From positions 9,520,553 to 9,584,552 of the forward strand of contig OX344750.2 in the NCBI GenBank assembly GCA_947034885.2: a DNA stretch of 64,000 nt, written 5' to 3'. The position numbers and the translations under genes were made by a program. Under the pieces are notes generated by a model, which made no database searches, was not told the origin of the DNA, and saw only the letters and a program-made list of their open reading frames with translations. This document shows, one piece after another, positions 4,751-63,136 of the stretch. Position 1 is the stretch's first letter; each line of letters begins with the position of its first letter. This stretch comes from Thuidium tamariscinum (lineage: Eukaryota; Streptophyta; Bryopsida; Hypnales; Thuidiaceae).

Positions 4751-4978
4751 ATGATCTCCTTGTGTCTATAATACATGGTGGGGATGCCTATGCATGATTC
4801 CTACAATTGTAGAGGTTCTTTTCCAATGAATTATGGAGAATTTTTTATGGTGTTGTTTACTAGAAGTTCTTAAAAGCAACTTGATTACAGAAGAAACCTT
4901 GTTTGATGTTGGATAAATAAATGAGCTTTTTTCAGTGAAGTTTATGGTTTTGAAAGGTTGCATTGGTGTTATTCTTAG

Positions 4979-5133
4979 GGCTATTACTCTTCACAACACC
5001 GATTACATTCACCGCGTCGAATTCTAGGAAATGAATTTCCTCGTTCAAGACCTACTCCAACAAGTTACCCCCCTCCTTTTCAAAATGTTCGACGCTCTCC
5101 ATTTAGGCGCCCTCATTCTCCTCCACATCCTTA
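4979..5133 (+). pseudogene. Short Pro/Arg/Ser-rich frame, possible gag remnant
   Basis: A local frame reads NEFPRSRPTPTSYPPPFQN followed by more Arg/Pro/Ser, less AT-rich than its flanks. Such composition is usual for the tail of a retrotransposon gag protein. No intact zinc knuckle, protease or polymerase is visible nearby, and the frame is closed on both sides. Weak evidence. Confidence 0.15.
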
Positions 5134-6504
5134 GAAGATTAGCATGCAATAGTTATATGCTTATTAACACTTAAAGAGTTTCACGCATCTTGTGATGAAT
5201 TATGCCGAACTTGTCATTGTTGTCAATGCACCTTTGGGATGTTTTATGATGAATTGGTCCTATTTGGACAGATGTTCATTGTCAATTTCCATTGACAAAA
5301 TACAATTGGGAAACAAAGAAGGAGCTTAGAATATAAGGTGCCATCTAATTATGAACATAATATTTGGAGTCATTGCAAGAAAGAATGAACGATTTCTTAA
5401 TCACAATTGAAACCATTCTCTTATTGTTTGCTATAACTTTTGAGGCACAAGTCCAATGAACATTAAATTTTTCTTAAACATGTCTAACTTTATAGTAATC
5501 AAATATTTTATTTTTTATAAATTAATAAAAATTATTTCATATTTGAGAACTATTTTTGCTAATTTGTCACAAGTTGAGGTTTAGGGGTTTTTACTACATT
5601 ACAAGTCCCCAAATTTAATGATTTAGAGCTCAAACTTTCATGGTCTATTTGTATAGTAGGGAAACATGTATCTACCAGAGGAAATTTGAAAATATATTAT
5701 TTTTATGTCCTTTATATATGAGTACAAACAATACTTCCATTGCACTCATTGAGGTTTGAAGATGGTTTTTAAATCATGTTTTTGGTGAAACCTCATCACT
5801 ATCAATTTTTCCCAAATGGACAATTTTTTTTGGATGATTAATGAATATGAAAACAACTAATACAAACAAAAAAGAATGGGATCTCAAGACAACTAGTCTA
5901 GATCCAAAGTTCCAAACCAACAATGCTAAACTGCTAATAGTGTAAATAAAAGAATTATTTGAAAAAAATTACAATCTAACATGAGAATTTTTTTGAAATA
6001 TACTCTTTTCCCAAGATTTTGTTTTCTTTGCAATGGCCCAAATCTAGTGGCACTATTGAGGCATCATTCTTTTTTCTAATGAATTTTACAAGCTATATGA
6101 ATATAAGTGTTCAAGCTCTTGATTCATGATATATATGCTAATCCTTGAACATATTATGCTCTAATTTTTAAAGTTTAAAATTCACTTAAAGTGCAATTTG
6201 AATGTTCTAAATTTATAAATATTTTCAATTGTGTATTTATACTATATACAAGATTTCAAGGAATATGATTTTGTTGTGTATTGAATTTCTCAAATAATCT
6301 TCAAAGTAGTTTAGTAATTTTGCAAAGAAGTTTAATTGTCTTGCAAGAAATAGTAAAATAAAATCTCAAACACCTAGAGCCCCCTGGATTTTTAAGTCAA
6401 ATTTTAGCAAAAGAAGTTCATGGCTTTTGACATCTATTGTAGAACTTGAAATTTTTATAAAGCTCTTGATTTTTTTAAAGATTAGATTCATAAAATGAAA
6501 AAAA
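5134..6504. other. AT-rich stretch without recognisable genes
   Basis: Very AT-rich with short homopolymer runs; no coding frame, element end or RNA gene could be supported. Confidence 0.6.
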
Positions 6505-7918: not shown

Positions 7919-9124
7919 CAACGATGCTAGAGTATGAGCGTTGAGCAACAAGCAATGAGCAATGAAACTTGAATGCTCATTACAAGAATGTTTTCTAAAA
8001 ATATACATGTTAAAGAAATAAATAGTATTATCAAATCCAAAAATAATAATGACAAAAAAAATCTAATTTTTAATTTTCAAAAAAATCTACAAAAAAATTA
8101 TATAAAATAGTCGATAGTATAATAAAAGGTTGCATTAATGAACATCCATTCATTCATGTGTGAATGAACTTCATCCATGTCATCCATCCATCATCCATCA
8201 TTCAATTTTCAAATTGTTAAAATTTTTGCAATTCGTTATAAGCTTCTTTGAAACCAAAGAGGCTTTGAACCATCTGTGCTCTTTAATATCGTCTCCCTAA
8301 AAGCCTCTTTGGAGCTAAAGGGTTCTCCTAGTATAGGCTTTTTTAGAACTTAAAGAATGCTCCTCGAATTTGAGGAGCTTTTCTTTAGTACCAAAAGGCT
8401 TTTTTTAATAAGGCTTTTTGAATTCATAAAAAGCTCCTTGAATCTAAGGAGCATTTTTTGGTGCCAAAAAGGTCTTTCATTGAAACCACTTTGGAACTAA
8501 AATAAGGGTATTTCAAATCAATGAGCCCTTCATTTGTGCCAAAAAGTTCATTTAGAGCATCTTTGAATCGAAGAGGCCTTAAAACCATCATTGCTTTTTA
8601 ATATTGTCTCCCTACAAGCCTCTTCGGAATTCCTAAGAGCCTCCTCGGAACCCAAGGAAGGCTCCTCGGATCCGAGGAACCTTTTTTAATACCCAAAACT
8701 TCTTGCAATGAAGGCTCTTCAGAATCCAAAGAAGGCTCCTCGGATCCGAGGAGCCTTTTTTGGTGCCCAAAACTTCTTGAAACGAAGGCTCTTTTAAACC
8801 CAAGGAAGAGTCTTTGGATCCAAGGAGCCTTTTGTTGATGCCAAAAAGTTCTTTCAATGAAGGCTCCTTACAACTCAAAGAATAATCTACATCTATAGTT
8901 CTTAATTTTTTCATCTACATTTTTCATCTACATTCATCTAGTATTATTTTCATCCATCTAAAGTAATGAATGAAATAAGGCATTTACATCTAAAGATTTA
9001 TTTTTTATAAAATTAATTTTTAAATATTCATTCTTAAATTTTTTTCTTAAAATTCTTAACGCTCAAATCTTCCTGCTCAATGCTCAACACTCAACGCTCA
9101 TTGCTCATACTTTAGCAACTATGT
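7919..9124 (+). mobile_element. Mutator-like element with perfect 9-bp duplication
   Basis: Flanked on both sides by ATTACCATA (7910-7918 and 9125-9133). Termini are GATGCTAGAGTATGAGC and (reverse complement) GTTGCTAAAGTATGAGC, followed on each side by GTTGAGC/AATGAGC repeats. The relative at 28.7 kb has the uninterrupted sequence CTTACCATAGAAGG, an empty site. 1206 bp; no transposase frame. The middle is the minisatellite at 8230-8890. Confidence 0.9.
8230..8890. repeat. Palindromic minisatellite (GGATCC-centred units)
   Basis: About eight diverged units of roughly 70-90 bp, each with an AAGGCTCCT...AGGAGCCTT arm pair and a spacer reading GTGCCAAAAAGTTCTT or similar. One unit (8732-8757) is a 26-bp perfect palindrome centred on GGATCC. 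An open minus-strand frame (8633-8914) is a by-product of the repeats, not a gene. Confidence 0.8.
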
Positions 9125-11030: not shown

Positions 11031-11280
11031 TTAATCAAACCTAAGAGTGTGTGCCATGATGTTGTGCAGAAATTAGTTTGCATTAGTGTACTCATATTTT
11101 TAGGCAAGACCAGATTCTCTCAACATGCCGTAAAGGTTCTATTGTCCTTCCCAAAATTTGGATTGCAGGCTATCTTCTATGTCCAAATACAATGGCTTTC
11201 ACATACGGTCTTTGCTCAAGTGGACTCTGTTCACAACCCGTTGCTCCCCCACGGTGACCCACTTGTTGTTTAGGGGTTAA
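11031..11280. mobile_element. TTAA element, short class, diverged interior
   Basis: The right end (CACGGTGACC ... TTGTTTAGGGGTTAA, TTAA at 11277-11280) matches the inverted left end of the copy at 29793. The left TTAA at 11031 is the best candidate but its following bases are eroded. The interior is less AT-rich than its flanks and differs from the 229-bp copies. Confidence 0.5.
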
Positions 11281-13348: not shown

Positions 13349-13571
13349 TTAACTCAAAAAAGACACCGTGGATGTTTAGTGTTCGATGAACAACAAGGAA
13401 TTCTTTTGTGTAGGATGAAACTACAACTATTCATCCTTGAATTTTGGGGTGGAAAGTGGAGATCTTTTACAATAGATTTATTTCAAATGAGTTCTTTCAT
13501 ACTTTTCTATACCAATGATTCCCACGATTTTAGAAAAGATGATACACCACCCCCCATCCTTCAAGGGTTAA
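13349..13571 (+). mobile_element. TTAA element, 229-bp class
   Basis: TTAA at 13349-13352 and 13568-13571; right end TTCAAGGGTTAA. The interior (TCGATGAACAACAAGGAAT, TTCATCCTTGAATTTTGGGG) aligns with the copies at 33262 and 33775. 223 bp. Confidence 0.75.
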
Positions 13572-26120: not shown

Positions 26121-26815
26121 TTTTTTGGCAACATAGCAATTTTAGGCAGCTCACTACAAATGGAGTTTTTATTTTTTTCTTTGAAATTTTCACACAACAT
26201 CTGCTTGAGGAATAGCTTTAAGGCCCAACAATTTTCATAACTTTTGGCTTTGTGGTTCAAAAGTTATTGCATGATGTGTGATTTTCTTTGCATGGTAGGC
26301 AACCCAAGCAACTCAAAAAACTTATTCAAATAACACTTTTCTTAAAAATTAAAATTTCAAATTCTTTTTTTAGATTTATACAAACATAGGAAGCTTTGAA
26401 TCATTCCATTTGGATTAATAAGATGAAAGTTATGAGGAATTTTAGTTTGCAAGTAGGTATGGAGTCTTTGAAAACCATACCTACCCACAGACTAAAATTC
26501 TTCATAACTTTCATCTTATTAATCCAAATGGAACGATTCAAAGCTTCCTATGTTTGTATAAATCTAAAAAAATAATTAGAAATTTTAATTTTTAAGAAAA
26601 AAAAATTTTGAATAATTTTTTTGAGTTGCTTAGGTTGCCTACCAAGCAAAGAAAATCACACATCATGCAATAACTTTTTAACCACAAAGTTAAAAGTTAT
26701 AAAAGTTGTTGGACCTTAAAGCTACTCCTCAAGAAAATATTGTGTGAAAATTTCAAAGAAAAAAACAACTCCATTTGTAGTGAACAAGCCCAAAATTGCT
26801 ATGTTGCCAAAAAAA
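26121..26815. repeat. 695-bp fold-back, two 342-bp arms and 12-nt loop
   Basis: Arms 26121-26462 and 26475-26815 are reverse complements with few differences, from TTTTTTGGCAACATAGCAAT at the outside to GTAGGTATGG/CCATACCTAC at the loop. Each arm matches the first part of the 925-bp TTAA element (shared with 47.1, 60.6 and 6.5 kb), so this is two half-elements joined head to head. Transcribed in either direction it would make a near-perfect double strand. Confidence 0.95.
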
Positions 26816-27629: not shown

Positions 27630-28378
27630 TTAACCTCTTAAAATCATTGACTATGTTTTCAACAAAAATACTCTAAAATTACCATTTTTAGTGCAAAGTA
27701 CCAAATTTTTGAAAAAAATGTTTTTGGATACATGTAACCATAGGATCTTGTAGAATGCTAGTTTGTAAAGATATAAAAAGGTTTAAAAAATTTCCACTTT
27801 ACAAATTGCAAGATATTAATCTTTGAATTGACAAAAATCTTTTTTTGGCCCTATAAAAATTGGGCAATTGCACTTCACAAGGTTACATTTGTATGAGAAA
27901 ATGTCCAAAATGGCAGTGCTTCTTTAGATTCATACTTCAAGGCAAGTTGTCTATGAATTTGAAAATTTTTAGATCATTTAGAATTGTACAACATATAAGA
28001 AAAAAATAGTAAGTAAATAGAAGTAGGGAATCATTCAAACTACTAGATTGTTGATGATTTATTCACGGAATTGAAAAATGCTAGTTTCAATGGTTGTAGT
28101 GTTATAATAAACAAAAAAAATTCTAAAATTTCATTTTTTTTCAAAAAATATTGAAAATTGAATTACACAAAGAACTTCATGGTTTATTTTCAAGCGGAAA
28201 AACTATAATTACCTACAAACTAAAATTCATCATAAGTTTCATCCCATTAGTAATAATGAACTATTTCAAATCATTTTTTGTATGTAAAAATCTCCAAAAC
28301 CAAATTCAAATTTTTACTTTAAAAAGAATTCTAATCACCCTAGAATACCTAGCTGACCCAGCTGGTGAAAAAAAACTA

Positions 28379-28800: not shown

Positions 28801-28972
28801 TGAAAATTTCAAAGAAAAATAAATGAATACTCCATTTGTAGTGACCAAAAATTTATATGTTGTAGAAAAATGCAACTTGATTCTTTAGGAGTTAATGTAA
28901 TAGGCATCAAGTCCCCAAAACCACCTCCAATTTTGCAACCTTGAGTTTAAGATTGCATGGAATAATTATTTA

Positions 28973-29792: not shown

Positions 29793-30022
29793 TTAACCCT
29801 TGAACGACAGACTGGTGACCGTGAAAATCATGCATTTTGATTCCGTGTGACATCATCTACTTTGGAAAAGCCAAATATATTTATTGGAAGTCAAAGCCCT
29901 ATGGAAGATCTCTTCTTTCCACTGCTAAAACTGAGGACCAATAGTTGCACTTCCATTCTACAAGAGAAGATTCTCTCTCAGTCAGAGGACGCAAAACGTC
30001 CTCTTCAATGTTTAAGGGTTAA
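29793..30022 (+). mobile_element. TTAA element, 229-bp class
   Basis: TTAA at 29793-29796 and 30019-30022; ends TTAACCCTTGAACGACAGAC and (reverse complement) TTAACCCTTAAACATTGAAG. 230 bp. Confidence 0.85.
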
Positions 30023-33261: not shown

Positions 33262-33490
33262 TTAACCCTTAAACAGCGTCGAAGCTATTTTGTGGTCGAT
33301 GAACACGAGAGAATCTTTCTATGCAGGACAGAATAGCAATCATTCATCCTCAAAATTAGGAGTAGAAAAGAAAGATTTTCTACAATGCTTTGACTTCCAA
33401 CGAGTACTTTTAGAATTTTTTGAACCAATGATTTCCGCGGTATCAAAATTCCTCATTTCCACGGCCACCGGCTCATCGTTTAGGGGTTAA
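33262..33490 (+). mobile_element. TTAA element, 229-bp class
   Basis: TTAA at 33262-33265 and 33487-33490; ends TTAACCCTTAAACAGCG and (reverse complement) TTAACCCCTAAACGATGAGC. Exactly 229 bp, best-preserved of the class together with the neighbour at 33775, same orientation. Confidence 0.9.
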
Positions 33491-33774: not shown

Positions 33775-34003
33775 TTAACCCCTAAACGACGAGCAGTCCA
33801 TATTCTGGCCAATGAACAAGAGAGAATCTTTTTGTATAGTACAGAAATACAATTATTCATCTTCAAAATTAGGGGTGGAAAGAGAAGATCTTTTATATGG
33901 CTTTGACTTCCAATGAAAGCTTTTGAATTTTTTGGATCCAATGATTCTTATGGTATCAAAATTCAAGATTTCCACGGCAACCAACTTGTCATTTAAGGAT
34001 TAA
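33775..34003 (+). mobile_element. TTAA element, 229-bp class
   Basis: TTAA at 33775-33778 and 34000-34003; ends TTAACCCCTAAACGACGAGC and (reverse complement) TTAATCCTTAAATGACAAG. Exactly 229 bp; interior aligns base for base with 33262-33490 over long stretches. Confidence 0.9.
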
Positions 34004-34639: not shown

Positions 34640-34870
34640 TTGTTATTTGTAGTTCACTTTAAAAAAATTCTTTTTAAAGTCTAGTTTTAGCATAAAAAAT
34701 TTGTTGCTTAAAGGGATTGATTATGATTTTTCTATTGAAGATTTTGTGCAAGGATGACCATTGCAATCAAGACTTTATGCAATGTTGAGGGCTCTTGAAA
34801 ATGAGCCTCAAATACACTAGTTCTTGGAGAAAAATCACATCAAAAATTCATTAAAAAAATTGTAAAGAAG
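34640..34870 (+). pseudogene. Coding-like fragment, second copy at 52.0-52.2 kb
   Basis: Translates locally as DFSIEDFVQG, then PLQSRLYAMLRALENEPQIH after a frame break. The inverted copy at about 51985-52235 reads DFSVQDFVQGSPLQSSLSVV followed by LRALENEPQIHEILVKK. Differences that keep the protein suggest an ancestral coding segment, now dead in this copy. The protein family is not recognised. Confidence 0.35.
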
Positions 34871-35783
34871 ATTTTAAGAAGTCATTATTCATGTTAGGCC
34901 ATTTAACCTCATCTTTTTGGTGACCAACTTTTTAGATTTGACATGTGAAAAGATGAATGAAAGACTTCAAATCACTTGTATAATTTGAACATCCTCATGA
35001 TCAAACACTATGATCTTTCAATCCATAAATGATATTGTTGTGTTTTCTTTTCTTTTATGATTTCTAACATATCTAGATTGAATCTATACAATTACAATTG
35101 AAAAAACATTGATACAATTTATCAAAATGTTGACATTTTATTCAATTTAAAGCAAACTCCTAAAAGCTCATAAAAGGCTTTCGGCATTTAGGAGTTTAGG
35201 TTTGGTATACACCAATTTCAAAGGTAATAGGGCCTCTAGGTAAAAGAAATCAAAAACTAAAAATTAAAAATATAAGTCAGGGGCTAAGTGTTTTAAAGTT
35301 TTGTTTTTTGTTTTTGTTTTTTGAAACTCATGGAATTTAAGTTTTTTAAGTTTTAAGTTTTTCATTGTTTGAGTCCTTGAAAAATGCTTTAACTCTTAAT
35401 GGACCATCTAGTGACCATGCACTACAAAGGAAACTACGTCTTATTTGATAGTAATTTTGATAGAATTCTGTCAACTCTGCTATAAATTAGGAGTACCTGT
35501 TTTGGACACTTTTTTGACAAAATTCTGTCAATTTGGCTGTCAATTCAGACAAAGATACACATCAACAAGTCTTCCTCTCACTCCTTTGCCATTGTAGATT
35601 TTTTTCCACGTCACTTATCCAAAAAACTATTTTCTAAGGATTTAATAATAGTTGAAATAATGGTTAGAAAAAAATTGGAGGAAATTATTTTAGATGAATG
35701 ATAAATTTTAGATGAAATGCTTTTGGATAATTAAAATTTTCAATTTTTTTTAATCAACTTTCAAGAATGTTGACCAAAACAAA
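34871..35783. other. AT-rich stretch without recognisable genes
   Basis: No coding frame or element ends supported. Confidence 0.5.
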
Positions 35784-36708
35784 TTAACCCCTAAAGGACC
35801 ATTGTCCCCTCGGGGGACAATTTGGAGTTCGGGCAAGTTCCGTAGACCTCAATTTTTAATGAATCTTTTTTAAACTTTCTCATAAGATAGGAAAACTAAT
35901 GAGCTTCATGGGAATGTAATTTTTATTTCAATTGGTGACCAGGAGCAAAAGTTATACCACAAAAAGCCCAAATTCTCATTCGGCGGGCAGAATTTTTTTT
36001 TGCAAAAAGTCAAAATTTAATTTTTTAAAATTTTTTTTTCTAAAACAATAAATTTTTGCCTACATGTGAAGCTTTGATTCACTCTATTTGGACTTATAAT
36101 GAGAAAGTTATGGACAATCTTGTTTTTCGGGCAATCTAAACAATTTCTTGAAAAAATAACTTATAGGATTCATTTTTGAATGCAATTTTCACAATTTTTC
36201 AAAAAAAATTGTTGGAAAAGGTTATGTTTACTTTCTAGAACAATCTCACCATTGGGATTATTGTATTTCAATCCCATCTTAGAGTTATTAACCATTTAGT
36301 TTTTCTTTCAATCTTGGACCTACATCTACTTAACAATTTTTTAAAGAATGAAAATCAAGTGTTTTTTGTGTGAAATTTTTTTCCTAGACTCTCAACTCAA
36401 TTTCTTAACACAAAAAATTATAAATTCAAAGTCTGTAGTGCAATTTTTTAATACAAATTCCAGTCAAAGTCATCTGAAATTGCAAACCACAGTTCAAAAA
36501 AATTTGTATTTCCAACTTTGAATGCTCATATCTTCCAATTTGTACGGTCAAACTTCATGAAATTTTTACCACTTGATCTCAATCAAGTTAAGTACAAGAT
36601 CCTACGGTTAGATTCTTAAAAAAAATTGTTTTCTTGGATGAATGCAACAGAAATGGCAGTTTTGAGAGGTTTTTGACAGAAAAAAGGCCTTGGTCCTTTA
36701 GGGGTTAA
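35784..36708 (+). mobile_element. Intact TTAA element, 925 bp
   Basis: TTAA at both ends (35784-35787, 36705-36708) and an 18-bp perfect terminal inverted repeat TTAACCCCTAAAGGACCA. Non-coding interior, uninterrupted, so it sets the class length. Relatives at 6505, 27630, 47092 and 60622, and half-copies in the fold-back at 26121. Confidence 0.9.
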
Positions 36709-43827: not shown

Positions 43828-44690
43828 TTAACCCTTAAACGACAAGATCCATTGCCATCTGGTCAATCATCATGTCCAAGGCAAATTTAGCATATTAGAT
43901 GGCCTTCAAATATTGATCTTATATTTTTATTACTTCAAACTATGAAAAATGTAATATTAGGAGCAATTTCAATTGATTTTGTAAAAAATTGTAATTGTTA
44001 TCATTTTTGTTGCAAAAACCAGAAATAAATAAGTAAAAATAGAAGAAATGATCCAAATTATTTGAAATTTTCTCAAGAGTTACAAGTAGAAATGAATATT
44101 TGTCTACAAAATTTTCAATTGATTATTCTATTTTTAAAACCCCAAACAACCACACCAAAGACCTTGAAGTAATATTTGCCTATTAAACCACATTTAATAC
44201 TTTATTGAATAGAGGTATAAAAATTTGATGTTTTTTACTAATAGGAAATTTAACTTCCTATTCACTCAAATTTTTTCAAATTTTTTGATGAAAACTACAA
44301 ATTATCGTTATTTTTTAAAGTTATGAATAAAAAATAATTATATCAACTTGAATATATAGTAGAATAATCTAAAAATTTTACCATTAATGAAGGTAACAAT
44401 GGAAAACTTAATTTTGTAATTTAAGTTGAAAATTCATTTTAAAAGAAAAAAATATGAATGAAAAACACAACAAATTGTGTTTTTTGGATTTTAACACATA
44501 GAGCTTGCAATTGCAATAACTTTTTCAATTTTTCAATTTTTTCAAAATTTCAAGTTGAAATTGAAAGAAAAATTGTCAAGCTTCATTTTCTTAGTCAAAA
44601 TCAAATTCCAAAAATGATTATATTTTAAGTTAAAATCAAGGTTGACCACGGCGCATCCACTTTTTGGATGCATATGTGCTTAAGGGTTAA
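43828..44690 (+). mobile_element. TTAA element, 863 bp
   Basis: TTAA at 43828-43831 and 44687-44690; ends TTAACCCTTAAACGAC and (reverse complement) TTAACCCTTAAGCACA. Interior differs from the 925- and 980-bp classes; non-coding. Confidence 0.85.
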
Positions 44691-49655: not shown

Positions 49656-50620
49656 TTAACCCTTCAATGCCCCAAGGGACCAAAAGTGTTCTTCTAGTTT
49701 AGAAATTCAATTTGAAGTGCTATAACTTTTTCCAATGTTCAAATTCAATAAAGATTGTTGGAAAATCTACGCTTTTTTTTTTAGTTTGTGTAGTAAAATT
49801 TTCAGATCAATCCAAGATATAGTGAATTTTTGGGAGCCAATTAAAGTTGACTAGTTCAATTTCAATTCATCAAACTCAAATTGATGCCTACAACTTCACA
49901 GGCTTGTATGTCCTTCATCTAATATTTGTTTTCAATAGAAATTTGTTTGATTATGTCCCTCTAGAAGTCTAGTTATTGTAGTCAAATTTTCCTAGAAATC
50001 CAAGTTGTTTAGAATGTTTAGGAACAATTCAAAGTTTGAAAACCATGAATTTTAGGATTACAATTAACTTTGACAGCTTCTTTCTTCTTCATAAGTGTCC
50101 ATTTCCAATAATTTTTTTCAAAAAGTTGTGTATACTAGTCTAGTTTGCATGGCTAAAATCATTATATTAATCCTAGAAGTTATGACTTATGAGTGATAGA
50201 GAAGCATTTTAGTCGAAAGAGCTTGAATCCTATATCAATGTGTTTTTTACAACTCATTTTTGACATTTCAAAGCCATTTTGCAAACACAATGAGCCAATT
50301 GAATGGTATTCTCTTGCACCAATGTGTTTGTATGCTTGTTTTGAAGTACTTTATGGTTCAAAGTTTTTTCACTTGAGTATTGTTAGAAATCAAATTTCAT
50401 CTCCAAATGTGTCTTCAAGAAAATTTAAACATCTTTTTTCAAAACTAAAATATTATAATCTCTCAATTTACATGGCCAAATGACTCCAAATTTGATCCAC
50501 GTCATTTACAATACATATGTACTACAAGATTGTCTACTTCAAATTTCCATACCTTAATGACATTTAGATGTATAACACTTCAAAAGCAATGATGTTTTAT
50601 CTCCCACAAGGCTGAATTTG
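49656..50620 (+). mobile_element. 980-bp-class TTAA element, right end eroded
   Basis: Left end TTAACCCTTCAATGCCCC (TTAA at 49656). Interior matches 50966-51946 and, inverted, 61897-63136 (for example AATGACTCCAAATTTGATCC). The GGGTTAA right end is not preserved. The 96-codon frame at 50193-50483 lies inside it and is not shared intact. Confidence 0.7.
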
Positions 50621-50965
50621 TTGGGTCAATTAATCATGGGGTATTGATCAATTATGAATTGTTCTACCTTACATAACCCCTAAATGCTCAAATCTTGCTT
50701 TGAGCTTCTTGAAATTTGCTCTATATTGAACAAAATGCCAACATTTTGATAAGTGGTATCAATATTTTCTGAGTTGTAACTATAAAATTTAATCTAGACA
50801 TGTTAGGGATTGCCTTGGAAAAGAAAATACAACAATATTACTTATGAAGTGAAAGATTATAATGTTTGACCATGAGGGTGCTAAAACTGCAAAAGTGATG
50901 TGAAGTCTTTCTATTTTTTTTTTGAAAGTCAAATTTGAAAAGTTGGCGACCAAAAAAATATGAAG

Positions 50966-51946
50966 TTAACCGCTTATCACCAAAGGGGATGAAAAGTATC
51001 CTCACAACTTAGCACTCCAATTCAAATTGTTGTAACTTTTGCATTCAATGTTTGAATTCAAAAAACTTGTTGGAAAAGTTGCATATACTAATCTAGTTTG
51101 TGTGGTAAAATTTTCAAATCAATCCAAGATATACTAATGATTTGGAAGCTAGTCGAAGTTCATAGGTTCAATTTGCGTTCACCATATTGTAGTTGATGGT
51201 TGCAACTTTGAAGGCTTGCATCTCCTTCATCCAATGTTTGTTTTTAGTAGAAATTTGTTGGATTATGTTCTTCTAGAAGTCTAGTTATTGTGGTCAATTT
51301 TTTTTATAGCAATCCAAATTGTTTTGAATGTTTGGGAGCATTTCAAAGTTTGAAGACTTGACATTTTTGGAATGTAGGGAACTTTGGCAGCTTCTTTGGC
51401 TTCCTCATTCAGTGTCCATTTTTAATAATTTTTCTTAGAAAAATTGCGCATTCTAATCTAGTTTATGTGGTTGAAAATTCATATCAATCCAATAGGTTAT
51501 GAGTGACTGAGAGGCATTTTAGTAGAAGGAGGTTTAGCTATTGAAGTATTTTTTCACCCTTTTTTGTTATTTTTTTACATGTCAAAGTCATTTTGCAAAC
51601 ACAATGAGTCAATTAAATGAAAAAAATTTCCACCAATGTGTTGGTATGTTGATTATGAAGCACTTTATAGTTCAAAGTTTTAACATTTGAGTGGGTTTAG
51701 AAATCAAATTTGACCTCCAAATGTGTTTTCAGAAAAATTTAAGTATCTTTTTTCAATACTAAAACATTATAATCTTTCAATCTATGCAATCAAATGACTC
51801 CACATATTATCCACGTCAACTACAACATGCACATTACAAGATTGTATGGTCAAGATTTTCATAGCTTAGTGGCATATATAGACTTTTAAAACTTGAAAAG
51901 AAAATAGCTTTTAGACATAGTTAGACTTTTGGTGATGAGGGGTTAA
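50966..51946 (+). mobile_element. TTAA element, 981 bp
   Basis: TTAA at 50966-50969 and 51943-51946; ends TTAACCGCTTATCACCAAAG and (reverse complement) TTAACCCCTCATCACCAAAA. Both ends present, no insert. Confidence 0.85.
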
Positions 51947-51984
51947 AGGGCCTAACATGCATAACTCCAATCAATTCATGGCTT

Positions 51985-52235
51985 CTTGAAATCTACTCTA
52001 CAGTTTTTGTAAATGAATGTTGAATGTGATTTTTTCACCAAGATCTCGTGTATTTGAGGCTCATTTTCAAGAGCTCTCAACACTACGGAAAGTGAAGATT
52101 GCAATGGGGATCCTTGCACAAAATCTTGAACAGAAAAATCACTATCATTCATTTTCCAAAATTGAATTTTTGACATTGAAACTAGACTTCAAAAAGAACT
52201 TTTCAAAAATGTAAACTACTACAAATAACAACTTC
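51985..52235 (-). pseudogene. Coding-like fragment, second copy at 34.6-34.9 kb
   Basis: Minus-strand frame MSKIQFWKMNDSDFSVQDFV followed by QGSPLQSSLSVVLRALENEP and QIHEILVKK. The better-preserved copy of the fragment also at 34640-34870; not tied to an element with visible ends. Family unknown. Confidence 0.35.
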
Positions 52236-52312
52236 GTTAAGGTTTTATTTAACTTCAAAGTTTTGCAAATACTAGATTTGGGTGCCTTAGGCATTTAGGA
52301 AATAAGCTTACA

Positions 52313-52865
52313 ATGCATCTCTCCCCTTTCAACTTGGCCATTATAGCCAATAAGGTAGGGGGCTGTAAAAGCAACCTTGTCTCTAAAAGCGATCTGGTAG
52401 ATTTTACCTCTAACATGTACCAAAAGTGTACATTTCAGGAGGGGGTCGCTTTTAGAAACCACTGTGTTTTCAACTTCAAAAATTCATAACTAATTCCATG
52501 AAGGTCCAAAAAATATGAAATGACTTGGGTTAGATGCCAATTCCATTTTTCTTACCACGAAAATTTACTAAAAATTGTTTTAAGAAGTTTAGCTTCCCCA
52601 AAATGCAAATCAGCTGGTAAAGGGTCGCTTTTACAGCCCTCTGCCTTAAACAGACTGAGTCTTGATTCCAGCCAGTCTTTAATAAAGGTTCAGACTTCAG
52701 AGTTGAGAGCGAGTTCTTCTTCTTCCACCAGAATCCAGATCAGTCTGCTTTAATTTTATGAATCCGCTTGTCCTAACATAAGACAGTCTGTACAGTTGTA
52801 ATTAAGTTACTTCTTCTACACTCTGCACGTCCACTTGTCTTATGTCCAAACCAGCTTCAGAACAT
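52313..52865 (+). repeat. Segment duplicated at 53276-53470, here with a MITE
   Basis: TCTCCCCTTTCAACT...CATTATAGCCAATA and CAGACTGAGTCTTGATTCCA ... CTTCTTCTACACTC-GCACGTCCACTTG occur in both places in the same order. In this copy the MITE at 52353-52646 separates them. Confidence 0.9.
52353..52646 (+). mobile_element. AGGTAG-family MITE with in-window empty site
   Basis: TA at 52351-52352 and 52647-52648; ends AGGTAGGGGGCTGTAAAAGC and (reverse complement) AGGCAGAGGGCTGTAAAAGC. The duplicate at 53276-53470 reads GCCAATAAACAGACTGAG with a single TA at 53313-53314, proving the boundaries. 294 bp. Confidence 0.97.
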
Positions 52866-52884
52866 TAACCAAACTCACAAGCAA

Positions 52885-53200
52885 TCAATGGAATGGTATT
52901 TTCTTGCACAAATGTGTTTGTATGCTGGTTTTGAAGCACCTTACAGTTCAACGTATATTCATTCAAGTACGTTTGGAATTCAAATTTCACCTTAAAATGT
53001 CTACATGAAAATTTTCAGCATCTATTTTCAACACTAATACATTATAATCTCTCAATCTATGTGGCTGAATGACTCCAAATTTGACCCATGTCGTCTACAA
53101 CACGAACACTATAAGATTGTCTGGTTGAGATTTCCATACCTTAATGACATTTAGATCCATAACACTTCAAAAGCAATGATATTTTTAACCCCCAAAAGGA
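52885..53200 (+). repeat. Fragment of the 980-bp TTAA element
   Basis: GGAATGGTATTTTCTTGCAC, CTCCAAATTTGACCCATG and CTTCAAAAGCAATGAT follow the same order as in 50290-50600. Separates the two copies of the duplicated segment. Confidence 0.8.
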
Positions 53201-53491: not shown

Positions 53492-54428
53492 GAGCATCCC
53501 CATCGCATGGGTCAGAATTTGACTCAAAATCAGCCCCTTTGCAGGGCTGATGATTATGATTCATCCCAGCCAGAGTTGGAGAGCCCCACTGCTGAACAGT
53601 GCAAGAAACCCTCTAAATGATATTTTCAAATTTTTTTAATCCAATTTTTCAGTTACTTTGCCTTGAATTAAACCCAAAAACATTGGCTTTTTTGTTTTTT
53701 CCTTTGAGGTTTCATTCTCCTTGTTTGAGGAGATCTCAAAATATTTTGAGTTTGCAATGGAGCAAGGCTCCTTATATCCCCATGGGGTGGAGGGAGGTGC
53801 TCCAACCCATGTGGGATATAAGGATTCCAACAAGTTGGAACTAAAAATTTGAATTTTGAATCTTGAAAATCCCAAAAAACTTAGATTTTCAAAATTTTAA
53901 TTCCAACTTGTTGAAATCCTTATATCCCACATGGGTTGGAGCACCTCCCTCCACCCCATGGGGATATAAGGAGCCTTGCTCCATTGCAAACTCACTTCTT
54001 CCTACATACACTTTATTGTGAATGTTGGGAAGCATGAGTTTCCATGAGAAGTGGAACTCCCTACATCCTCTTGGGGTGGAGGGAGGAGTCCCAATCCATG
54101 TGGGATAAAAGAGATAATGAACTCTTTTTTTGAGATAGGAATTGTCTCATTTTTGTACATGAAATTGCTTGTAAGCATTTCATTTTTGAAAAAAAAAATT
54201 GAAATTGGAAGGTTAGCAGGGTTTGTACCTCGATTTTGGGGTCAAAAGTGCAGTCAAACTTCCTTCTGGTCCCTGGGTAAAACTCAGTATTATCCCGTCT
54301 ACCTAATAAATCTGGCCGTGCCTGACCATATTTTGAGTCTTATTTTGCGTGGGGTGGGGTACAGATAGTTGGCTGACCCGACCAAATACCCAGTTTGAGC
54401 CAAATTTTGAGCTGCAGTGGGGATGGTC
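53492..54428. mobile_element. PIF/Harbinger-like element containing a hairpin
   Basis: TTA at 53489-53491 and 54429-54431; ends GAGCATCCCCATCGCA and (reverse complement) GACCATCCCCACTGCA, then ACTCAAAAT-like words on both sides. GAGCATCYCCA ends with TTA are a known plant PIF/Harbinger type. 937 bp, no transposase. The fold-back at 53747 sits inside. Confidence 0.8.
53747..53994. repeat. Near-perfect hairpin, about 100-bp arms
   Basis: Left arm TGAGTTTGCAATGGAGCAAG through GGGATATAAGGATTCCAACA pairs with 53893-53994 with only one or two mismatches; the loop region is about 37-45 nt and AT-rich. A diverged single arm lies at 54055-54110 (GGGGTGGAGGGAGGAGTCCC). Size and pairing resemble a young microRNA precursor. 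Confidence 0.95.
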
Positions 54429-60621: not shown

Positions 60622-61900
60622 TTAACCTCTAAATGCCCAAATTGCTTTTTTTTTGTGTAGTTTACTACAATTGAAATTTTTTTCCCTTTAAAATTTTCTC
60701 ACAACATTTTCTTAAAGAGTAGCTTTAAGACCCAATGATTTTCATAACTTTTGACTATATGGTTAAAATTTATTGAAAGATATGTCATTTCCATTATATA
60801 GTGGGCAACTTTGATAGCTAAATAAACTTCTTTAAAAATCATTTTTTAAAGAAATAAAAATTTGAAATGATTTTCTTAGATTTATATATATAGAGAAAAA
60901 ACTTTGATTCATTTCATTTTTACTGAAAAGTTGAAAGTTATGAGGAGTTTTATTTTTTGGGTTGTTATGGATTTCCCACTCTAAAATAAACTTTGAAGTC
61001 CTTTAATTTAGTCAATTTTCAATATTTTTGAAGAAAAATTAAAATATTGGGTGTATATTGTTTATTCAAACATTACAACCATTGGGATTGGCATTTCCGA
61101 TCACACAAATAAATTATTAACATTTCAATATTTTGAATCATTCTCTACTTCTTTGTACTTATTATTTTTTCCTATAAGTTAAACAACTCCAAATGATTAG
61201 AAAATTTTCAAGCATGTAGCTAACTTGTAGTGAAAATTGAATACAAAGGGTAACCACAATTTTGGGTATTTTTTCACACCAATGTGAGCTTGTAAAGTGT
61301 AGCTGCCTTTTTTTCCATAGGGACGAAAAAAGGATTTATGTCAATTCAAACACTAATATCTTGCAATCTACATGATGAAAACTTCTAAAAAAATTTCTAC
61401 ATCTTTTCAAACTAGAGTATTGTAAGATCCTCAATTATATTTTTCCTATTTTTTCTATTTTTTAAATTTGGACCTTGTATCAATAATGACAAGTTTGAAG
61501 TGTTTTCATGAAAACATAGTCCAATACAGTACATTTATGCATAAGAGGATTTCTGGGCCCCCAGGAGACGATTTCAGGGGTGTTCCCCGAAATTGTTCCC
61601 ACTGCTGCAGACCAGCCCCCTCCTGGTCTGAATTTTTGAATTTTGAAAAAATTAAATTAAAATTTTTTTTTTCAAAAACTTCAGAATGTATTAAAGAGAA
61701 AAAAAATGATTTAAAAAAAAATTCAATAATTTTAAAAAAAAATATTTAATATTTAATTAAAATTAATAAAATTATTATTATTTTCTGATGTGGCAGTCGC
61801 TGGACCACATCAGCATCGCGTTCCCAAAGTTCCCAATGCGTTCCCAGCGTTTGGGAACTCGCAGTCTTGTACAACATCTGAAAATCCTCTTATGGGTTAA
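60622..61900 (+). mobile_element. 925-bp-class TTAA element with a MITE in its right end
   Basis: TTAA at 60622-60625 and 61897-61900; left end TTAACCTCTAAATGCCC, right end GGGTTAA. Removing 61544-61890 plus one TA leaves about 930 bp. The right TTAA is shared with the next element. Confidence 0.85.
61544..61890. mobile_element. AGAGGATTT-family MITE
   Basis: TA at 61542-61543 and 61891-61892; ends AGAGGATTTCTGGGC and (reverse complement) AGAGGATTTTCAGAT. 347 bp, about 90% like 55087-55408 by eye. The 10-mer is TGATGTGGCA here (61786-61795). Confidence 0.92.
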
Positions 61901-63136
61901 CCCTTCAAGATCCGTGGTAGAAACATGTTCAAAAACATCATAGCTTTTGAAGCCTTAAGGTGGGTACACCCAAAAGCGCCCTATTCCTAAAAGCACCATC
62001 TACAGTGCACATACATTTTCGAAATCAGTCATGTACCCAGACTGTAGATGGCGCTTTCAGAAACAAACTTTGACCATTAATAACTTTTGCATACAGTATC
62101 CAAATCCTGCGTTCTTTGGTGCATTGGAACATGCTTTCACTTGCCAACAAGACTACATAAAAATTTGAACTAATTCATAGCAGGAAGTAGGCTCAGTATG
62201 AATAAGTGGCGCTTTTGGGTGTACCTACCTTATATATCTAAATGTCACTAAGCTATACAAATCTCAACCGTACAATCTTGTAGTAGACATGTTGTAGATG
62301 ACATGAACAAAATTTGGAGTCATTTGACCGCATAGATTGCAAGATTATAATGTTTTAGTGCTGAAAATGGTTGCTGAAATTTGATTTCTAAACCTACTCA
62401 AATGAAAAAACTTTACACTACAAAGTGATTCAAAACTAGTACACAAATACAAACAAAGTGATTCAAAGTGATGGAAAAAAAATTCACTTGATTAACTCAT
62501 TGTGTCTACAAAATAGCTTTTAAATGTAAAAAATTAGCCACAAAAACTACAAAGAACTACATCTAAGGCTGAACCTCCATTTACTAGAACGCTTCTCAGT
62601 CACTCATTAGTGTTTGGATTGACATGAAACTTTAGTCACACAAAGTAGACTAGTATGCGCAACTTTTCCAAGAAGTTTTATTGAAAATGAACTCTGTATG
62701 AAGAAGAAACAAGCTGTCAAAGTTTACTATATTCCAAAAATGGCAGGGTTTTGAACTTTGAATTGCTCCCAAACATTCAAAACAACTTGAATTGACACGA
62801 AAATTTTACCACAAAAACTAGAATTCAAGGGAAACAAAACCCATCAAATTTGATTGAAAATGATCATTTGATGAAAGAGAACCAAGCCCCCAAAGTTGCA
62901 GCCCTAAAATACAGTTTTTGAACTCAAATTGAACCTGCGAACTTTGATTGGTTGCCGAAAAATCATCACGTTTTGGATCAATCTGAAAATTTTACCATAC
63001 AAACTAGAAGACAACGCACAACTTTTCCAACAAGTTTTGTTGAATTTGGACATTAGATGCAAAAATTATAACACTTTGAATTTGACTAAAAACTTTGAAA
63101 GGCGCTATTTGCGCCCCTTGGGTGTTGAGGGGTTAA
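61897..63136 (-). mobile_element. 980-bp-class TTAA element with a MITE inside
   Basis: TTAA at 61897-61900 and 63133-63136; ends TTAACCCTTCAAGATCC and (reverse complement) TTAACCCCTCAACACCC. Inverse of 49656/50966. Removing 61958-62230 plus TA leaves about 965 bp. Confidence 0.85.
61958..62230. mobile_element. AGGTRGGTACACCC MITE
   Basis: TA at 61956-61957 and 62231-62232; ends AGGTGGGTACACCCAAAAGC and (reverse complement) AGGTAGGTACACCCAAAAGC, one mismatch. 273 bp. The second half of each end (CAAAAGCGCC) echoes CTAAAAGCGACC of the AGGTAG family. Confidence 0.92.

Follow-up and report, generated by a model that had tools for sequence, protein, structure and literature searches.

Short TTAA-flanked elements of piggyBac type and their coding relatives in a plant genome that is most likely that of a moss

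The tips of piggyBac, the transposon of Trichoplusia ni (T. ni), read CCC, as do those of the elements described here, which reside in what is most probably a moss. The T. ni element (structures 6x67 and 6x68) is further like them in its TTAA target, in its DDD transposase and in the cysteine-rich domain at the C-terminal end of that enzyme. In the cited passages on its structure, the catalytic triad is given as D268, D346 and D447, and a dimer of the cysteine-rich domain binds base pairs 17–33 of one (left) end, where a palindrome is centred near bp 25 (PMC7351741). The two systems differ in size, the T. ni element measuring 2472 bp (in the passage of PMC10803768) and the moss coding elements 4.9–5.9 kb, with frames of up to 1127 amino acids. 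They differ also in the arrangement of their ends: the internal repeat of T. ni is present in both ends (same passages of PMC7351741), whereas in the moss a palindrome at that place was seen in 5' ends alone and differs in sequence by family. Among solved structures the best match to a moss transposase is piggyBat of Myotis lucifugus (9c0f), which comes from a mammalian host and has a chain of 578 residues, compared with 1127 in the moss frame. The short elements have a counterpart in the CMITEs and AmiPB of corals, for which the passage of PMC2872659 describes short TTAA-flanked elements tied to piggyBac and an allele without the insert; those CMITEs are about 100 bp long and reside in an animal, whereas the moss elements are 229–981 bp long and account for thousands of ends.

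In plants, the available descriptions are of a different kind. PiggyBac is listed as one of seven superfamilies of angiosperm MITEs, recognized by terminal repeats and target duplications, in a passage that presents neither an element nor a coding partner or a transposase (PMC10004981). Repeat tables label 1,230 fragments (122 kb) in Ceratopteris (PMC6890710) and one fragment (75 bp) in Stipa (PMC8319324) as PiggyBac; these hosts are land plants too, but the labels come from repeat masking and the passages give neither ends nor a transposase. According to the passage of PMC12732532, piggyBac has a wide distribution across animals, fungi and protists and is met only occasionally in plants, red algae being an example, and other passages name ‘plants’ among its hosts without detail. 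Plant piggyBac MITEs as such are thus not without precedent, and what is unusual here is the host and the scale. Our literature search, which covered mainly openly accessible papers, found no account of a moss piggyBac and no coding piggyBac from a land plant, and the word piggyBac is absent from a moss review (PMC13120521); priority on either point is uncertain. One further paper (PMC10619864) was discarded as a source, as it contains only the word ‘piggybacking’.

The window, by which we mean the whole 64,000-nucleotide stretch that was analysed (G000:C2:9520553-9584552), belongs to a genome assembly of 363,211,507 bases in 19 contigs, of which C1 to C11 sum to approximately 362.9 Mb, so that the assembly consists essentially of eleven large contigs. 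MAP70 is a plant protein family, and exons of a MAP70 gene lie on the minus strand of the window at approximately 15.3–19.1 kb (a third matching stretch falling just below the family cut-off). A LEAFY exon of the same genome finds its best match in chain 4bhk (LEAFY homolog 1; 238.5 bits), followed by 9fwy (173.2 bits) and 2vy1 (172.4 bits); we take 4bhk to be a protein of the moss Physcomitrium and 2vy1 to be from Arabidopsis. From the MAP70 exons and a LEAFY exon that scores best against 4bhk, the host, in which the preliminary description had seen a plant, is a land plant and most probably a moss. An Rfam search of the window returned no match. The superfamily is known mainly from animals, and animal DNA contaminating the assembly would account for its appearance here; that explanation is nonetheless vanishingly improbable, given that scored transposase loci (described below) are found on all of C1 to C10, that the window itself carries the plant MAP70 gene and that the elements sit inside the genome's own repeats.

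A preliminary description of the window had proposed that at least ten elements begin with a common motif, TTAACCCYTMAA, and end in its inverse. The elements are real, and their ends occur far above chance. Counting both strands of the window, the motif is found exactly at 12 ends, compared with 0 for the reversed motif; with up to one mismatch the counts are 25 and 1, and with up to two mismatches they are 77 and 61, so that two-mismatch ends are not evidence by themselves. Throughout the genome the motif has 25,291 matches and its reversed control 559, and an 18-mer, TTAACCCCTAAAGGACCA, has 4,488 matches compared with 0 for its control. The first 100 places listed for this 18-mer include 16 facing pairs less than 2 kb apart, 15 of which span 915–934 bp. 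The uniformity of the ends, on the other hand, had been overstated: the motif is exact at five of the 11 listed left ends (33262, 33775, 35784, 43828 and 61897), carries one mismatch at two (29793 and 60622) and two mismatches at one (27630), and departs by three or more at the remaining three (11031, 13349 and 50966). Facing right ends lie at 11280, 13571, 30022, 33490, 34003, 36708, 44690, 51946 and 63136. The left end at 27630 is faced by a one-mismatch end at 28895, forming a candidate pair, and for that at 60622 no facing right end was established in the window.

A 925-bp element lies at 35784–36708 (plus strand), with a palindrome at its left end. A 981-bp element at 50966–51946 (plus strand) is inserted in a high-copy repeat for which empty sites exist in both the window and the genome. 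Two 229-bp elements on the plus strand, at 33262–33490 and 33775–34003, are 75% identical, and a 230-bp member of the same class lies in the opposite orientation at 29793–30022 (minus strand), with a palindrome at its right end. A 223-bp element at 13349–13571 (plus strand) is a decayed member of that class: its left end is without the motif, its right end has one mismatch, and it is 69% identical to 33262–33490 over 152 bp. The 250-bp stretch at 11031–11280, to which no strand is assigned, is a possible further decayed member; it carries the motif (exactly) at its right end only, its left end reads TTAATCAAACCT and does not fit, and no alignment to 33262–33490 was reported in the comparison within the window. 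The minus strand also carries an 863-bp element at 43828–44690, with a palindrome at its right end, and a 1240-bp element at 61897–63136, which, judged by its sequence, is probably a modified relative of the 981-bp class. Several members of the 981-bp family lie close together in the window (49676–53176 and 62239–63085), with three in a row at a spacing of approximately 1.3 kb.

The four proposed size classes (229, 863, 925 and 981 bp) all recur genome-wide. In counts of whole-length rows, which include the window copy and describe the best copies only, 39 of 41 rows cover bases 1–925 for the 925-bp class (best 40 of 6,359 candidates, 96–98% identical to the window copy). The corresponding figures are 37 of 43 rows for the 229-bp element at 33262–33490 (best 40 of 1,902 candidates, the best copies being 87–91% identical to the window copy), 27 of 40 for the 863-bp class (best 40 of 979 candidates) and 28 of 43 for the 981-bp class (best 40 of 3,471 candidates, the best copies being 81–84% identical).

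The transposase anticipated in the preliminary description is present in the genome. A search with the PF13843 (DDE_Tnp_1_7) profile gave 659 candidate loci, and each of the 116 that were scored has an E-value of 1.4e-70 or lower. The best thirty loci, eleven of which are near-identical copies of one family, were cut out for inspection of their motifs. The DDD aspartates, in the motifs [ST]xDE, DxxF and [RK]GVDxxD, are kept in all thirty, as is a fourth D, and the C-terminal cysteine-rich pattern CxxC...CxxC...C..C is found in 28; it is partial in L018, from which one cysteine is missing, and in L038, which has a stop and a lost cysteine. In a phmmer search the 1127-residue frame of L080 matched piggyBat (9c0f) with E=1.8e-32 and the T. 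ni enzyme (6x67) with E=7.8e-25, with the aspartates aligned. Twenty transposase domains, compared after ten copies of one family had been set aside, are 37% to 100% identical with a median of 42%. The frame is open over the domain in L039, L080 and L081 among others; some other frames are broken or contain stops. Kolobok elements also use TTAA, and so the target site as such fits them equally well. An origin of the short elements from that group is nevertheless extremely improbable, for the partner transposases match DDE_Tnp_1_7 and the solved piggyBac structures and most of them carry the cysteine-rich domain of piggyBac type.

The boundaries of one coding element are given by alignment. A 5096-bp element is represented by two copies, L039:289-5384 and L040:339-5434, which are 99.96% identical and lie in different flanks; their similarity breaks off precisely at TTAA at either end. 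In this family, eleven loci show 0–1 differences from L021 over 3,984 bases counted inward from the 3' end, and the printed 21 bases that flank them differ; the near-identity of these copies therefore indicates recent movement. A wider fetch of 11 transposase regions found facing TTAACCC ends, 4,896–5,946 bp apart, in ten, and one end only in the other (L083). These represent nine distinct coding elements (L039/L040, L041, L079, L080, L081, L082, L084, L085 and L086), all with CCC tips at both ends. The ends of all but L039/L040 were recognized by the motif itself, so that the sharing of ends between short and coding elements is in part a matter of construction, and the independent cases are L039/L040 and the pair of coding elements that partner the 925-bp class (described below). 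The nine elements have a G+C content of 43–51%, compared with 28–38% in their flanks. At C2:5660472, where the flanks on both sides were examined, no facing pair of ends was recognized.

Two observations concern other reading frames and other insertions of this kind. In L039, L041, L079, L080 and L084 an extra open frame of approximately 260–300 amino acids lies upstream, overlapping or preceding the transposase frame; those of L039 and L041 have a stretch with HPSWC in common, and the frame could represent either a 5' exon or an additional gene. Another insertion, L042:1307-6341, has the same ends and measures 5,035 bp; it is one in which no transposase frame was seen and for which empty paralogs of a single site exist; it is a large non-autonomous element.

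Inspection of the element ends revealed a palindrome near the 5' tip. Its centre lies at position 29 when the TTAA is counted as 1–4, which is 25 bp from the first C. At this centre the ten coding 5' ends that were scored have 6, 6, 7, 5, 6, 8, 7, 2, 4 and 7 of eight possible pairs (the weak ones being L085 and L086), that is, at least five pairs in eight of the ten ends and a mean of 5.8, whereas none of 500 shuffles exceeded 3.6; the ten elements belong to approximately six families, so that the shuffle result overstates their independence. The ten coding 3' ends show no peak at centre 29, and for them the mean is highest at centre 18, with 3.4, a value that 16 of 500 shuffles also attained. 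The palindrome was spotted by eye and then scored on the same elements, and the comparison with T. ni came afterwards.

Several short elements in the window have the same feature at one end. All eight pairs are formed at the right end of 29793–30022 (centre 29) and at the left end of 35784–36708 (centre 28), and seven of eight at the right end of 43828–44690 (centre 29). The 1240-bp element has six of eight at its right end and five of eight at its left end, the left end of 50966–51946 has five of eight, which is not above shuffles, and no palindrome was found in the scoring of the ends of 33262–33490 and 33775–34003. The palindrome sequences differ from family to family and the position is constant. 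Because this position agrees with that of the left-end site in T. ni, we suggest by analogy that the moss palindrome is put to the same use, as a predicted site for the cysteine-rich domain.

Coding elements that share their ends with the short ones and encode a DDE_Tnp_1_7 transposase, as the preliminary description had envisaged, were found, two of which can be aligned with the 925-bp element at each end. Bases 1–95 of that element align to bases 1–95 of L081 (77% identity over 97 columns) and bases 629–925 to bases 4841–5143 (69% over 315 columns). With the first 12 bases set aside, its ends score 44 and 34 against L081, values reached by 0 of 200 shuffles. L081 corresponds to locus L018, the transposase that is short of one cysteine. 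The second partner, C7:17555611-17562063 (of which the ends were fetched), reads TTAACCCCTAAAGGCCCAAG at both ends, aligns with the 925-bp element over 307 and 53 columns, and has two stops in its frame. The alignments thus extend beyond the tips, and the 925-bp class, non-coding and uniform in size, is on this comparison a MITE of a coding partner. The right end of 61897–63136 likewise aligns with the 5' end of L086. Beyond the first 12 bases no strong coding match was found for the 229-, 863- and 981-bp classes, their best scores falling within or near the shuffle range.

These three classes without a strong coding partner, together with the lower identity between the window copy and the best copies of the 229-bp (87–91%) and 981-bp (81–84%) classes, lend some weight to a different history, in which the short elements are old and were moved by an enzyme since lost, and the coding elements arrived in a separate, later piggyBac invasion. 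We regard this as unlikely, though it deserves more credence than the other alternatives considered. The best 925-bp copies are 96–98% identical to the window copy, and two coding elements can be aligned with this class at both of their ends. The size classes also keep the palindrome at one end, although in the 981-bp class it is weak.

The preliminary description had left open whether TTAA, TA or nothing at all is duplicated upon insertion, and had looked to empty sites for the answer. We therefore joined the flanks of 14 insertions around one TTAA and searched for the resulting sequences; the empty sites so recovered are paralogous repeat copies, as distinct from alleles or orthologs. Such sites were found for five of the 14 insertions, each with one TTAA or a substituted 4-mer and free of gaps at the junction, and the remaining nine yielded none in these searches. 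The clearest example lies in the window itself: at 34799–35020 (minus strand) the repeat that flanks 50966–51946 is present with one TTAA and no element, at 77% identity across the junction (241 aligned columns, with gaps elsewhere in the alignment). A genome search listed 40 copies of this empty site at 89–93% identity, and among the 20 of them that were fetched the junction reads TTAA in 12, TGAA in six and TTGA in two, with no base gained or lost. This site fills 40 of the 41 scored rows and so left the search little room for the other seven window insertions; none of them, 35784–36708 included, gave an empty site there.

In a second search, with six more insertions, empty copies were recovered for four (L039, L040, L042 and L004), for which 16 spanning paralogs were compared; no empty site was found in the genome for L041 or L006. 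The empty paralogs of L039 read TTAA once and TGAA once, and the single one of L040 reads CTAA (TTAA in 0 of 1). The 5,035-bp insertion L042 has TTAA in three of seven, the others being TTAG, TGAT, TTTT and TGAA, and the 932-bp element at L004 has CTAA in five of six and CTAG once (TTAA in 0 of 6). Overall, and with the window copy included, 17 of 37 empty sites have an exact TTAA and 20 differ from it by substitution.

The superfamilies with shorter targets bear on how these figures are read: PIF/Harbinger elements have a 3-bp target (TWA) and Tc1/mariner elements a 2-bp target (TA). Were the short elements to belong to either, the outer TTAA bases would form part of their terminal repeat. 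TTAA is its own reverse complement, and from an empty TTAA by itself one cannot tell whether all four bases were duplicated or only a TA between fixed neighbours; the 20 empty sites that differ from TTAA also count in favour of such an origin. We nonetheless judge it very improbable. The outermost T is conserved in the 925-bp family (4,488 of 4,605 ends, 97.5%), which speaks against a duplication of TA only, and elements with the same ends encode a piggyBac transposase. For these two reasons we take TTAA as the target, and the sequence comparisons accordingly point to a duplicated TTAA. At two places (L022:217/220 and L019:181/184) opposed ends have a single TTAA in common, as though an element had inserted into the TTAA that terminates its neighbour. 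A third place at which neighbours seemed to share a TTAA, C9:20594019-20594464, was dropped, as its second unit aligns only from base 8.

The transposase, the shared ends, the empty sites and the recurring size classes together support the piggyBac assignment first made from the tips and the TTAA, and we are highly confident that the short elements belong, as non-autonomous (MITE-like) members, to a piggyBac superfamily population in a moss that includes coding relatives of approximately 5–6 kb. The genome is filled with thousands of short elements of piggyBac type and also holds full-length coding copies, and to judge by their sequences they form a recently mobile and highly amplified piggyBac lineage. 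By comparison with the animal system, a dimer of the transposase would pair the two ends and a dimer of its cysteine-rich domain would grip the palindrome; excision would proceed through TTAA hairpins and leave no footprint, and the element would then be inserted at a new TTAA. The short elements, with both ends kept and the gene lost, would be moved by enzyme supplied in trans. With rather less assurance, and only slightly in preference to its denial, we favour a fuller account in which this is an old and diverse lineage of its own that is still jumping, that is the source of the thousands of short elements and that employs an asymmetric transpososome, such that the sequence of the palindrome may vary and its position at 25 bp is fixed by how the enzyme is built.

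With at least 116 scored transposase loci, one family of which is near-identical, such a moss would offer a natural plant system for footprint-free transposition. Its palindromes, fixed in position and varying in sequence, would likewise constitute natural variants with which to test how the enzyme distinguishes the two ends of an element.

The distribution of the elements among contigs and a few further repeats may also be recorded. Contig C11 (17.5 Mb) is absent among the 116 scored transposase loci (of 659 candidates) and among the best-match copies listed for the 925-, 229-, 863- and 981-bp elements, and it does carry other repeats. As best matches are what was listed, this depletion is a lead only; a sex chromosome, or a contig that is young or divergent, would be possible. 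Elsewhere in the window, positions 26169–26768 form a long and nearly perfect inverted repeat with two arms of 294 nucleotides (90% complementary) around a spacer of 12 nucleotides, positions 53747–53994 form another with arms of 107 nucleotides (97% complementary) and a spacer of 34 nucleotides, and positions 8638–8859 consist of 74-bp repeats in tandem.
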